From NCBI GenBank assembly GCA_903813345.2, contig CAIIXF020000009.1, positions 5,700,030 through 5,764,029 on the forward strand: DNA of 64,000 bases. Direction: 5' to 3'. This DNA comes from Owenia fusiformis. Its lineage: Eukaryota; Annelida; Polychaeta; Sabellida; Oweniidae. The translations under genes and the position numbers were made by a program. Numbering within the stretch: position 1 is the first letter of the stretch; every line of letters starts with the position of its first letter. Positions 9,891-17,708 of the stretch are shown piece by piece. Under the pieces are notes generated by a model. The model had not been told where the DNA came from. It did no database searches and saw only the letters and a list, made by a program, of their open reading frames with translations.

Positions 9891-10287
9891 CTAGAGTCCA
9901 TTTCACTGCTTCATTTCGTCAGTAGAACGGCAAAAATAAGAAATTGGGAGACCATTGTGCAATAATATATGGAAAAGAATATTCATAATGTACATGAATG
10001 ACATTTGTATATTTCAGATTTTTTAGTTTTTTGTGCAATAAGCCTGTGCCGTCTTGTAATTTGAAGAATTTCAGCCATGTTAATCTTATTGAAAATAACA
10101 TGGCAGAGAAACATCCAAATATAAGAAGCCACACACTTTATTAGCCAAACTAGAAGCAATCCAAGATATACAAATCTCATTCATGTACATTATGAATATA
10201 CTTTTCCATATATTATTGCACAATGGTCTCCAAATTTCTTATTTTTGCCGTTCTACTGACGAAATGTAGCAGTGAAATGGACTCTAG
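9891..10287. mobile_element. Complete long-inverted-repeat MITE
   Basis: The left arm begins CTAGAGTCCATTTCACTG and runs through CGTCAGTAGAACGGCAAAAA and TTGGGAGACCATTGTGCAAT to TACATGAATG. The right arm is its near-perfect inverse, ending CAGTGAAATGGACTCTAG. Arms are about 120 bp with an unrelated centre of about 140 bp. A TA duplication is possible within CTAG on both sides. A partial copy begins the window (1-209). Confidence 0.75.
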
Positions 10288-11251: not shown

Positions 11252-14200
11252 ATGGGTGCGTATGCCAGTAACTTCCAGCCTGACACAGGAAGCATTGTAT
11301 CTGATATAACCGATCCTACAAGGTCAAACTGGATAACAGCCCATGCTGAAGCAACTGGTTGTAAGTGCATTCAAATAGCTATAGTATTCATTTGGAAATT
11401 GATGACTCAAGATACATTTATGTGTGCAGTGATCTCCAAGTATTGGTATTGCGTGGCACCAAGTTGGTGCTGCACCCATTTAAGATTTTTGAAATAGGCT
11501 TGCGACCATATTAAAATCTATTTCTACCTATTTGTAAATGAAAAAAATAAAAAAGGCATTTTCAACCAACATTTGTGTGAAAATGAGAAATTTTGTCCCA
11601 GGATAGAAAAAATTCTGAGGAGAATATGGTGTTTTGTACACAAAAAAATTATTTGACATGCTAAACTGTTGAAATATATACAAAAACAAAATACAACCAA
11701 GAAATAGACTCATAAATTCTAAAATATATTTTGGGGTTTTAATATTAATGGGAAATGTCTCCTATTTATCTACATGTGTACAATCATATTGTTTCATTAC
11801 AGTCTCATTAATGTTAAAATATATTTTGGGGTTTTCTTAAAAAATAATGGAAAATGTCTGCTGTTGTTTCATTACAGTGGCTATTGTTGAAGTAGAGCGC
11901 CTGTGGTTGAGGTTCAAGCAGTTAGGATGTGACAAGTATGGGACTCTGCCTGGTAGCAAGCTCAATGAGCCACAGCTCACACAGGATCCCTTCTTTAAGA
12001 ATGTAAGTCACATGTTTGGAATCAAATGATTAGCCTGCCTAATTTTTGAACCTTCCTATACTCCTGGTATACAGGGTGATCCAGAAGTAACGTCAAAGAC
12101 ATTGTAATTTCAAAAGTATTCATCAGATCTTCATGAAATTTGGTATACATGTACCCACAACATTTCTGAGTTACCATCTCAAAGATTGGAATTCAATTAT
12201 TTCATTGGTTGAAATTATGGTTGCTATAGTAACCCGATATCGCGTAATCCGGGGCAAATTGAAGAGAAACCATAACGTTTTTGTGAATTTCTCTAATTTA
12301 AAAAGTCAGTAACATTTGAAAATGTTCATTGTTTGTTTTCTATGATTTTTATATTTGTTGCCATGGTAACAAATATGTAATAGTTGTGATGTCACAATAG
12401 GCATTCATAAAAAGCTTTCAATTTCTTTGAATTGCTTCCATCATCCATGACAAATACTAACATGACCAAGGACACTAACCCACCCAATTCAAGATGGCGC
12501 CAAGTCAGAGTAAAATAGAGCAAAGAACAAACATTAAGTTCTGTGTAAAGTTGGGGAAAGGTGTAAAAGAGACTATAAGACAGATAAAGAAGGCATATGG
12601 TAAAGCTGCCATTGCTGAGAGAAACATTTACAGGTGGTTTAACAAGTATTCCAGTGGATATGATGAAGTGGTAGACAAGCAGCGAGGAGGCAGGCCAGTG
12701 TCGTCATTCGATGATCAAACCATCAAAGCAATTGAAGCTGATGTTATGGACAATAGGCAAATTTCTATCAGAGAATTGGCTGAAAAACACGATCTGAGCT
12801 ATGGGACTGTGCAACGGATACTGACAAAGAACTGTCTGTTAAAGAAGGTGTCTGCTAAATGGGTGCCGCATGACTTGACACAGGAGCAGAAAGACCGGCG
12901 TGTTAAGGCTTCAAGGGACTTTCTTGCAAAATATCGGAGAGATGGAGATGACTTTCTTAACAAGATCATTACGAGTGACGAATCATTGCTATCATTCTAC
13001 ATCCCAGAGACCACGCAACAAAGTTCATCGTGGAAACATGACAACTCCCCAACACCAACCAAGCCTAAAATAGTACCAGGAATTCCACAAAAGAAACAAA
13101 TGGTTGTGACATTCTTTGACATTAGAGGAATGGTGTTAACCCATTTTGTTCCCATTGGCCAGAGAATTAATGCCGTTTACATTGCAAAGGTAAGATATCA
13201 TTTGTTCTAATAATACATCATACTGTGAATTTTATTTTTAAATTAAAGTATTTAAATGTTGTTCACTGTCAATATAATTATAACTCCATGGCCATGATTC
13301 AAATCCAAATCCAATCAATGAAACAACTGGTTTAACAACCATTAAACATTTGTTTTTCAGGTTCTGAAGCGTGATCTTCAACGTTCCCTGAGGAAAAAGC
13401 GTCCCGGACATCTGCAGCAGTTTATCTTGCATTGGGACAATGCCCCTACGCACACTGCAATCCTGACCAGCAACACAGTCCAAACACTTGGATTTCAACA
13501 ACTTGAACATGCCCCTTATTCACCTGATCTTGCCCCCAGTGACTTTTATTTGTATGGGGAACTAAAAAGAAACCTTAGTGGAAATAATTTTCAATCCTGT
13601 GAGGAATTGAAAAATGCCGTAGTACTAGCCCTACAAGGAATGAGTTCTAATGGATTTAATTCTGTGTTCAAGGAATGGGTATCCAGACATGAGAAATGTG
13701 TTGCAAATGGTGGCAATTATGTAGAATGAACTATTATTAGTAACTGTGCAATAGTATGATTTATATTGTTGTGAAATAAAATGTTGAGGATATAACAATT
13801 TCAGATCTTGTTGATATTTTGAGATTACGCATTACACGTTAAGTAATTTGCCCCGGGTTACGCGATATCGGGTTACTATAGCAACCATAATTTCAACCAA
13901 TGAAATGATTGAATTCCAATCTTTGAGATGGTAACTCAGAAATGTTGTGGGTACATGTATACCAAATTTCATGAAGATCTGATGAATACTTTTGAAATTA
14001 CAACATCTTTGACGTTACTTCTGGATCACCCTGTATATGCAGAAATCGCTGTCAAATTGAAAACAGTATTTTGGTTGTTGCTCAAAGTATCCTTCAACCT
14101 GCTGTCAAATAAATGAAATCCTCTGAATTCTAATTTACTAGGATCTTCCTAAATGTACAAAAGGACATTAAATACACTGATGCTGCACACAAAATCATAA

Positions 14201-17200
14201 AATATAATATTTTCCTTCAGAATTATGGCCATAGATTTCCATTCCTCAATTTTCTCCCATATATCACTTATCATAAAAAGGCCCATATAATACATGTACA
14301 TTATATAATGTTTATGTTGAAAACAGGTACTGAGGTCATTTAGATCTGACGATGGAGACATTGCATTTCAAACATTCCTTAATGCAATGCAATGGTGTGA
14401 GGTATCAGAAACAGAAATGAAGCTTAGAGGTAAGTTTATAACTTTAATAGTTCTCAAATGTAATATCAGGGGCAGTGAATTCATAAGATCTGTGATCTGA
14501 TCCGGTTAAATTTCATTGTAGTAATGATGCATTGTGGGATTAATCTTGAAATTCATCTCAACATTGGGGAATTTGTACAATCTTTAGGATCAATATTATC
14601 CAAATCTCACATCAGTGGATTAATCTTTGGATAAAATTTGTCTGAATTCCAATTTAATTTGGATAAATCTTGGGGATTCCGCCCAAAATCCTGGGATTGT
14701 ACCAATTCACCAAATATTTATCGGGATCAATAATCCAAAATGATAAAATTTATCCGGATAAATTCTCGGATCGTACTAATTCATGGCCCCTGATGTTTGT
14801 TCACATTATCCTATTAAATATGAATCTGTCCAAAATTAACTGTAACACATACTGAATATTTATATAGAATTTTTGTATATTACTTCAAGAGTTTTTTACA
14901 TGTAATTAAATTCCTTAGTCTGACTGAAAGTGTTGGTTTTATGGTTTCCTTTGGTTTATTGGGATTTTAGATCTTAAATTAAATTAGATAGAAATACTTT
15001 AAATGTCAGTTTATTTATAGCGATTTATTGGGATTTTACAGCATCCAGATCTTGTCCTTTGTGCTTTAATTATCTATTTTTGTTGATGTGTAATTCTAGC
15101 CATATTCCAACTCTTGAACAATGGAGATCCTGTAGACCAAGACCACCTTGTGAGGATTCTCACCAGACTCTATCCTGAGGATAGTGAGGTATGCTGGGAT
15201 TGCACTAGCCTTCTTCTCATATAAACTTTCCAAAATTAGTCTGCATTCACTCATTTGAGATTTTGAAAAGAGGCTGGCTCTTCCCTGAAAACCAATTTGC
15301 ACTCACCTAAAATTCCATTTCTTCAAATACTTGGTACGTATTTACGAACTTCGGTAAGCATTGTGAAAAGTATAAAATTCATATTCAAAAATACTCTGAA
15401 GGAAACTAGTTCCCCATGTCAAACCCAAAATCTTAAGGGTGTCAGGTTTAAATTGAATTACTGAATTCAAAATGAATACAAATTTCAAGGTATGAAAGCC
15501 AGGTGTCAATTTTTCATATCCAAACATAATATAAAGGTGAAATTTTTATGTTTTTAGGAAGCAGTTCAAAGGATTGCTGGTGTTTTTATGGAACAAATGG
15601 ACAAAAGAAAGAAAGGTAACGTAATGGTTCATCCGACCATCTACCAATATACAAGCCATAGGTACAAGTTTTCCGTCATACTGCACCGCGGATGGAATTA
15701 GTCAAAACCTCCACATTTTCACAAACTGAAAGCACTGATTGAGTATCGTGAGATTTTTCTTCTAAGTCATGTTTATTTCAGGATACATCGATGAGCAAAC
15801 ATTTGTACAATGGATCCTAAAAATGCCACGGGAGACAGTGGAGCCTGTGTTAGAGTTTAGTATCATCCCTTCAGATATAAACGCTGATGCTCATAGAGCT
15901 TTCTCTACAGCACAACCTGCTTCTCTGGATGAGGTAAGATTTCTTATGAAAGAAAGCTTCTTCCAAATATTTTCATGCTCATATTCTCTATACACATAGA
16001 TCTGTAATGGTAAACAATTAAAAAGTCAAAAGTTGTTGATTTTCTTTCTCAGAGATATTTCTTTTTCTTTTTGACGTTTCGTAGGATGTCCATCCTACTT
16101 CTTCAGAAATAAAATTATATTTGAATCAAACTGAAATAATTAATTATTACATAACAATGAGAAAAAAAAATGATAGAAAAAAAAATAATTAAAAAGTCAC
16201 GTTAACCAACTTCATTTAAGATGGATGGTCGATTGAATGTTTTACATTAGCATTATAGGTAGCAAGAATCCAACCACCCAATGTATGATTTACCCTCACA
16301 AGTATTGCATATGAAAAATAATTTGTGTGTCTTTATCAGAAAATGCAGAATCATGATAAATATGGTAGAATATGGATTATTAGAAAAGAGTATGACCAGG
16401 AATGACATGAGCCTAAAAGATTCTTAAATTACAACAAAGAAATAGAAATATATCTATATTCCTATGAGAACTTTTTTAACCTCCTGCTTCATAAATGAGA
16501 CATCATTATCATCATTCAAAACTTAAATCTTCTGTCTGAATTATTTTTTAATATCAGGTTTGTCATTATTGTATTGTATAGCCCCAAATCCCTAGTGATG
16601 AGCTCCTAGGTCATGTCGCACGGAGATGTCACAAGCGAGACTGGAGCCTACTTGCAAACAACCTTGGTTACCTTCAAGAGGATATCGCCAACATAAAAAA
16701 GACTATAGGAAATGATTCAGAAAAACAAGTAAGTTGAGAAACCACATAAATGTATTACAATAGAGAACATAAAAATTATATTTGTGGGCATTTGATTCAT
16801 CTTCGTTCACTCGGCTCCCGTCAGTCGAACGCAGTGAAGACCGGAGCATGCGAAGATGCATTTGATTCCTATGCTTGATATGATTAAATTTTAAACAATA
16901 TGTTCTGTTTGTTTATTTTTGGTCTGTCTTGGTCTGTCCATCTATATGTCGATTATTATTGTTTTATTTGCATTATTTAATGATTGTGTGGCTTTGGTTT
17001 TCCATAAATGGCTTTGTCCCAAATACAAATATTAGCCACCTGGTGTCAGTATGTGCTTTTAGCCATGCAATATTTTTTTATCATTTATCTATTTTGCATT
17101 TTATAGTTGCTAGAAATCCTTACAAGATGGCGGGTTCAAAACGGCACTTCTGCTACAACAGATGAGCTAGAAACTGCACTGAGGGAATCTGGATTTGGAA

Positions 17201-17226
17201 ATGTTGCCACTCAACTTTCAATATGA
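11252..17226 (+). CDS. Calcineurin-B-like (degenerate EF-hand) protein fused to a death domain
   Basis: Eight exons join in frame: 11252-11360, 11878-12002, 14327-14429, 15100-15188, 15558-15615, 15782-15933, 16582-16728, 17107-17226; 903 nt, 300 residues. All introns are GT-AG, mostly GTAAG. The protein starts MGAYAS, matching the N-myristoylation pattern (Gly2, Ser6) of calcineurin B and CHP proteins. Residues about 40-185 align with four EF-hands of that subfamily (RFKQLG...GTL; QWCEVSETEMKLRAIFQLL; DKRKKGYIDEQTF). All four Ca2+ loops are abnormal: the last has Arg, Lys and Thr at positions 3, 5 and 12, and loop 2 is shortened. Residues about 215-299 form a death domain (WSLLANNLGYLQEDI; LLEILTRWRVQNG; ELETALRESGFGNVATQL). 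A Ca2+-insensitive, membrane-tethered death-domain adaptor is the simplest inference. The partner and pathway are unknown. Confidence 0.85.
11719..11877 (+). repeat. Tandem duplication of the exon-2 splice acceptor region
   Basis: The words AAAATATATTTTGGGGTTTT, ATGG(G)AAATGTCT and GTTTCATTACAG occur twice: once ending at an AG at 11801-11802, and again ending at the AG at 11876-11877 used for exon 2 of the EF-hand/death gene. The upstream copy is a complete decoy acceptor. From it the frame would enter TCTCATTAATG and read intron sequence. Confidence 0.7.
12072..14033 (+). mobile_element. Mariner (DD34D) transposon with 189-bp terminal inverted repeats
   Basis: The element is bounded by TA at 12070-12071 and 14034-14035. 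The left repeat 12072-12260 (CAGGGTGATCCAGAAGTAAC onward to GGGGCAAATT) is matched almost base for base by the inverse of 13845-14033. One open transposase gene lies inside on the plus strand. The element sits in intron 2 of the EF-hand/death gene, in the same orientation as the host gene. Such long inverted repeats are unusual for a mariner, where 20-40 bp is usual. The intact frame and near-identical arms suggest a recent insertion. Confidence 0.92.
12494..13729 (+). CDS. Mariner transposase, two exons
   Basis: The first part, 12494-13189 (232 codons), has helix-turn-helix motifs (IYRWFNKYSSG, DKQRGGRP), the mariner linker word WVPHDLT and the first catalytic Asp (Asp162 in TSDES). Here a GTAAGA donor opens a 171-bp intron (13190-13360, acceptor TGTTTTTCAG). 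The second part, 13361-13729 (122 codons), has the second Asp (Asp258 in HWDNAPTH) and the third (Asp293 in YSPDLAPSDF), exactly 34 residues apart as in mariners, and ends with the usual family tail (VSRHEKCVANGGNYVE). The total of 354 residues is close to the family length. Read without splicing, the protein would stop five codons into the intron and lose two catalytic Asp. No internal stop or frameshift is seen, so it may be active. Confidence 0.9.
14467..14792. mobile_element. MITE with CAGGGGC termini
   Basis: The left end CAGGGGCAGTGAATTCAT pairs with the right end ATTCATGGCCCCTG. The interior is rich in GGATAAAT/TGGATTAA words and has no open frame. No convincing target duplication could be matched. 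It lies in intron 3 of the EF-hand/death gene, just after exon 3. Confidence 0.5.
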
Positions 17227-17708
17227 TATCTGTTATAATGCAGCCACATTAGAAACTGCACTGAGGGAATCTGGATTTGGAAATGTTGCCACTCAACTTT
17301 CGATATGATATCTCTTATAATGCAGCCACATTAGAAACTGCACTGAGGGAATCTGGATTTGGAAATGTTGCCACTCAACTTTCGATATGATATCTCTTAT
17401 AATGCAGCCACATTAGAAACTGCACTGAGGGAATCTGGATTTGGAAATGTTGCCACTCAACTTTCAATATGATATCTGTTATAATGCAGCCACATTAGAA
17501 ACTGCACTGAGGGAATCTGGATTTGGAAATGTTGCCACTCAACTTTCAATATGATATCTGTTATAATGCACATTAGAAACTGCACTGAGGGAATCTGGAT
17601 TTGGAAATGTTGCCACTCAACTTTCAATATGATATCTGTTATAATGCACATTAGAAACTGCATTGAGGGAATCTGGATTTGGAAATGCATGATATCTGTT
17701 ATAATGCG
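17170..17708 (+). repeat. Minisatellite copied from the last coding exon
   Basis: Units begin at 17170, 17252, 17334, 17416, 17498, 17576 and 17654 (GAAACTGCACTGAGGGAATC), spaced 82 bp five... specifically 82, 82, 82, 82, 78 and 78 bp. The first unit is the authentic 3' end of the EF-hand/death gene, coding the last death-domain helix, with the stop codon and the start of the 3' UTR. Later units repeat coding sequence and stop. The last unit is truncated, and a diverged remnant occurs near 17770. Two unit types alternate in blocks (TCAATATG...CTGTT versus TCGATATG...CTCTT). Confidence 0.92.

Follow-up and report, generated by a model that had tools for sequence, protein, structure and literature searches.

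A putative EF-hand and death-domain adaptor related to calcineurin B, CHP and CIB proteins in the annelid Owenia fusiformis

The window analysed here is a stretch of 64,000 nucleotides of the Owenia fusiformis genome (assembly GCA_903813345.2, contig CAIIXF020000009.1, positions 5,700,030 to 5,764,029 of the forward strand), and all positions given without a contig name are counted from its first letter. Between 11252 and 17226, the first-pass annotation had recognised a gene joining an EF-hand block of the calcineurin B (CNB) and CHP type to a death domain. The locus raises the question of what such a protein would do: whether its two halves belong to one product, to which group of EF-hand proteins the front half belongs, whether this half would still sense Ca2+, and how the death domain behind it would be used.

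The gene model and its death domain

The gene was rebuilt from the sequence as eight exons on the forward strand (11252-17226), which splice in frame to 903 nucleotides, that is 300 codons and a stop (TGA at 17224-17226). All seven introns have GT-AG borders, their phases being, from the first to the seventh, 1, 0, 1, 0, 1, 0 and 0. The frame used is the sole stop-free frame in six of the eight exons; exon 5 (58 nucleotides) is open in all three frames and is too short to discriminate, and exon 8 contains in the used frame the terminal stop alone, one other frame also having a single stop. The eight in-frame exons and 300 residues of the first-pass annotation were thus borne out with correct coordinates, and its landmarks lie where it had placed them (MGAYAS at residue 1, W233, LANNLGYL at 236, W269 and FGNVATQL at 291).

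The first six exons, all on the forward strand, encode the EF-hand block and its flanks: exon 1 (11252-11360; residues 1-37) carries the MGAYAS start, an N-myristoylation-type sequence, and an N-terminal extension, and ends in a phase-1 donor; exon 2 (11878-12002; residues 37-78) carries the first EF-hand, with the degenerate loop GCDKYGTLPGSK; exon 3 (14327-14429; residues 79-113) the second, also degenerate, with a one-residue deletion in the alignment and a phase-1 donor after KLR; exon 4 (15100-15188; residues 113-142) the third, degenerate and with a deletion in the alignment; exon 5 (15558-15615; residues 143-162) the beginning of the fourth; and exon 6 (15782-15933; residues 162-212) the degenerate end of the fourth, a C-terminal tail and the linker. 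The two halves of the death domain are encoded by exon 7 (16582-16728; residues 213-261) and exon 8 (17107-17226; residues 262-300 and the stop), on the same strand.

The death domain covers residues 224-296 (Pfam PF00531; score 43.4 bits, cut-off 22.6; E 3.7e-11 with the whole protein) and was also backed when residues 213-300 were searched separately (E 5.3e-12). Its top match among the PDB chain sequences was the death domain of CRADD (E 1.3e-4), followed by those of ankyrin-1 (0.0025), THOC1 (0.0029), ankyrin-3 (0.012) and RIPK1 (0.026). The splice model, the Pfam match and the PDB matches agree with the order that had been claimed, an EF-hand block and then a death domain. There was no Pfam match to a CARD in the 300-residue protein at E values up to 1, so that the layout of CRADD (CARD and death domain) was not found here.

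The strongest match to this death domain outside the locus in the same genome was weak (E 0.0075), and lies in an open frame with tandem death domains on C10; the second (E 0.009) lies in a gene with a CARD exon and a Death exon on C9. The frame at C10:24629800-24631800 is open over 208 residues with two tandem death-domain matches. The two exons at C9:20653500-20655700 are on one strand (Pfam E 1.4e-11 for the CARD and 9.8e-16 for the death domain) and have a CRADD-type layout; in the PDB search FADD and RIPK1 come nearer to this death domain than CRADD does, which weakens any inference of partners from the CRADD match, and we did not retain it.

The whole protein was matched across its exons at one locus only in the same-genome search, with one more match, on C10, to the death domain alone. 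The closest pair of a death domain and an EF-hand_7 domain is 33 kb apart among the 67 death-domain and at least 131 EF-hand_7 matches listed; the EF-hand number is a lower bound, since scoring covered 150 of the 504 EF-hand candidates, and split or degenerate domains escape such lists, the present gene itself being in neither. Two adjacent stretches at 9907-10280 look by eye like mutual inverted copies and are perhaps a small non-autonomous transposon. Four ORFs or ORF parts were submitted to a profile scan, and two of them gave no family match.

Family and calcium loops of the EF-hand block

Calcineurin B was the best PDB sequence match of the front half (phmmer; residues 40-118, E 4.2e-9; residues 41-165, E 1e-7), and the five best chains were all calcineurin B, with E values from 4.2e-9 to 1e-7; further matches were CIB2 (0.0011) and CHP1, also named p22 (0.0084). 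The Pfam EF-hand models remained below their cut-offs with the whole protein (EF-hand_6, 16.8 bits against 25; EF-hand_1, 13.9 against 25.4), and the NCBIfam profiles gave no useful match. Searching the block separately, as the first-pass annotation had suggested, raised EF-hand_6 to 18.9 bits, still under the cut-off of 25, so that its EF-hand nature is backed by the calcineurin B matches and not by the profiles. Because the Pfam EF-hand models are under their cut-offs, the family call rests on the PDB matches and on the introns.

The same genome carries an ordinary CNB gene (C8:16.10-16.11 Mb), one exon of which is 97% identical to the human sequence, and a CHP gene (C8:23.06 Mb). A further ORF (C4:601400-602500), open without introns over 184 residues and beginning with MGSSQS, is one which we take to be CIB-like. 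Two of the five introns in the EF-hand part of the query, both of phase 1, have counterparts at the identical alignment column and in the same phase in CNB as well as in CHP. They are intron 1, immediately 5' of the helix that opens the first EF-hand, and intron 3, which follows KLR. Intron 4 (phase 0) is two residues away from a phase-0 intron of CHP, and introns 2 and 5 have no counterpart in the aligned CNB and CHP genes, the models of which start after the first exon, that of CNB also ending before the last. With introns placed at random, at least two exact coincidences would be expected with a probability of about 0.0003 for CNB and about 0.0014 for CHP, values which depend on the alignment and on a model that ignores preferred intron sites.

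Other comparisons point to a wider relationship. The query shares 45 of 172 residues with the CIB-like ORF, 34 of 135 with CNB and 38 of 152 with CHP from the same genome. The best same-genome match of the EF-hand part outside the locus was the CIB-like ORF (E 0.0016), followed by a CNB exon (1.06), in an exon-by-exon search which favours the CIB-like ORF since no introns divide it. The tree (six sequences, 156 columns, unrooted) splits CNB and CHP from the query and CIB with 84% support; the query branch is long (1.95), and its attraction to the other long branch is a likely artefact in such a tree. A simple assignment to CNB or CHP was dropped, since the identity to CIB is as high, the CIB-like ORF is the best genome match and the tree places the query outside CNB and CHP. 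As the tree did not group the query with either of them, the claim was widened from CNB/CHP to the CNB/CHP/CIB group: judged by its sequence, the front half is assigned to this group at large, rather than to one named branch. Of the CNB/CHP-type block that had been proposed, the calcineurin B match and the two shared introns stand, and the tree and the identities speak for the wider group.

The residues of the query at the loop positions of calcineurin B are, in the alignment, GCDKYGTLPGSK, RSD-DGDIAFQT, -LNNGDPVDQDH and DKRKKGYIDEQT. The acidic residue at position 12 is absent from all four loops, D is present at position 1 in one of the four, and two of the four contain a deletion; the placement of these gaps is uncertain, and the check was repeated without alignment. 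In the alignment-free scan, no 12-residue window of residues 1-196 fits a canonical EF loop, compared to four canonical loops in the same-genome CNB, two in CHP, and three overlapping windows in two loops of the CIB-like ORF. The alignment-based rule finds the full side-chain set in none of the four loops of the query, in four of four of CNB and in two of four of CHP, by the usual rule for canonical EF loops. The Ca2+ sensing implied by the first-pass annotation was consequently not borne out, no canonical loop being left by either check. The most fitting view of the block is that of an EF-hand fold which works independently of Ca2+, perhaps with unusual ligands, and the sequence is most likely that of a member of a Ca2+-sensor group turned plain scaffold, a reading which corrects that of a Ca2+ sensor.

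A proposed membrane-tethered adaptor and its alternatives

Read in order, the protein consists of a CNB/CHP/CIB-group EF-hand fold from which the canonical Ca2+ loops are gone, and which a short linker joins to the death domain at the C-terminus. We estimate at about one in two the probability of our main reading, namely that one gene encodes a 300-residue, membrane-tethered, Ca2+-independent, helix-binding adaptor with a C-terminal death domain. Its odds do not depend on the branch to which the front half is assigned, since CNB, CHP and CIB would all lead to the same mechanism.

N-myristoylation is frequent among proteins of the CNB/CHP/CIB group, and death domains associate with one another. 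Members of the group also bind an amphipathic helix of a partner, which is calcineurin A in the case of calcineurin B and a Na+/H+ exchanger in that of CHP. The N-terminal residues G2 to S6 of the query, within the MGAYAS start pointed out by the first-pass annotation, fit the N-myristoylation pattern. With a highest Kyte-Doolittle mean of 0.59 over 19 residues, no part of the protein has the hydrophobicity of a membrane span. In the proposed mechanism, glycine 2 would be myristoylated and would tether the protein to membranes; the EF-hand fold would no longer sense Ca2+, and its hydrophobic cleft would hold the amphipathic helix of a partner; and the death domain would pair with the death domains of downstream proteins, linking the membrane partner to a death-domain signalling complex. 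A role in innate immunity or apoptosis, as the first-pass annotation had suggested, would be conceivable for such an adaptor. The gene may have originated by the addition of two death-domain exons downstream of a CNB/CHP/CIB-group gene, through a phase-0 intron. A broader and more tentative proposal is that the protein founds a class of membrane-tethered, Ca2+-independent EF-hand/death-domain adaptors, in which a calcineurin-B-type cleft would couple a membrane protein to death-domain signalling. To our knowledge, such wiring of an EF-hand cleft to a death domain has no description in vertebrates or flies.

The alternative which survives best, although we find it unlikely, is that of a dominant-negative protein or decoy, whose death domain would cap or sequester other death domains at membranes. 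No CARD, DED, TIR or enzyme domain was over the Pfam cut-off across the 300 residues, and a death domain that comes with no further domain for recruitment or effector function would be expected to damp a signal rather than to launch it. However, such a make-up also fits a positive adaptor, and does not distinguish the sign of the effect.

It is improbable that the locus consists of two genes or two main transcripts, one for a CNB-like protein whose frame would close within intron 6 and another for the death domain. Such an arrangement would be favoured by the read-through of exon 6 (15934-16113 region): another 21 codons can be read before a stop that ends at 15999, and an AATAAA lies at 16108; this end may possibly belong to a short isoform without the death domain, which could coexist with the fusion. 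Against it, exon 7 contains no methionine and the codon directly before it is an in-frame TAG abutting the acceptor, so that the death domain needs an upstream exon, barring a non-ATG start. A search of intron 6 for frames that begin with ATG and lead to a phase-0 donor gave none for the set of donor patterns used, and the donor of exon 6 (GAG/gtaaga) is consensus-like, of phase 0, and fits exon 7; judging from these signals, exon 6 is the nearest upstream exon that does so.

We also give little credit to the view that the gene is decaying, a pseudogene in the making in which the fusion has no selected role. The degenerate EF loops and the long branch in the tree count in favour of this view, together with a 2-kb transposon in an intron and a tandem array in the last exon. 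The transposon is of the mariner/Mos1 type, and lies in intron 2, outside the protein (12068-14037, forward strand); it has 193-nucleotide terminal inverted repeats, 98% complementary, and two ORFs that resemble transposase genes, one at 12479-13210, with HTH_48 and Transposase_1 above cut-off, the other at 13346-13729, with DDE_3 below cut-off. The array (17168-17687, forward strand; 6.4 copies of 82 bp, 97% matches) starts within exon 8, and what it repeats is the last part of the coding sequence, stop included, together with the first part of the 3' UTR. Its copies contain AG dinucleotides, which are potential alternative acceptors. A gene under weak constraint might show such degenerate loops and a 3' end overlapped by a tandem array, but the 300 codons without a stop, the GT-AG borders of all seven introns, and a death-domain profile match well above the cut-off argue against decay.

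A Ca2+-switched adaptor, in which Ca2+ binding by the EF-hands would govern death-domain assembly as the homology to Ca2+-binding CNB and CHP might suggest, is hardly credible for a protein with no position-12 acid in four loops, deletions in two, D at position 1 in one, and no canonical window in residues 1-196 against four in the same-genome CNB and two in CHP.

Place among known EF-hand and death-domain proteins

The membrane-tethered adaptor preferred here would be, as far as its sequence tells, a new domain combination from known parts: a domain-shuffled death-domain adaptor, unusual as a combination. The first-pass annotation knew of no characterised protein with this order, and no described protein with an EF-hand followed by a death domain was found in the open-access full text searched. 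A putative Toll-like receptor of Aplysia has ROC and COR domains and an EF-hand (PMC9334734), and domain shuffling was reported to have rewired the innate-immune networks of amphioxus, death-domain proteins included (PMC2575513); an EF-hand and Death protein is absent from the parts of these two papers considered here. Other animals may have the same order of domains without its having been noticed. A scan of viral contigs for relatives, a collection in which animal genes are not expected and which carries no weight for the distribution, gave one pattern match and no confirmed relative. If the adaptor reading is true, a member of a Ca2+-sensor group would have become a plain membrane adaptor by losing its Ca2+ loops and gaining a death domain, and death-domain signalling would have a new entry point in an animal other than the common models.

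Calcineurin B (PPP3R1) and CHP1-3 share with the query the EF-hand layout, the MGxxAS start of the human sequences and, in the same genome, two introns that agree in aligned position and in phase. The query differs from them in its death domain, its non-canonical EF loops and its tree position outside CNB and CHP, and the insert of CHP between EF2 and EF3 is absent from it. The CIB family (CIB2, calmyrin) is similar in EF-hand layout, in the identity of 45 of 172 residues with the CIB-like ORF, in being the tree neighbour of the query and in the PDB match to CIB2 (0.0011); in contrast to the query, it has no death domain, and the same-genome CIB-like ORF is intronless, so there are no introns to compare.

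On the side of the death domain, the most similar system is CRADD/RAIDD, whose death domain is the best PDB match of the query (E 1.3e-4), and which is also a small adaptor made of a single recruiting domain and a death domain; its partner domain is a CARD instead of an EF-hand block, and it is not known to have a membrane anchor. The death domains of the ankyrins, THOC1 and RIPK1 resemble that of the query less closely (E 0.0025-0.026), and sit among other surrounding domains than those of the query.
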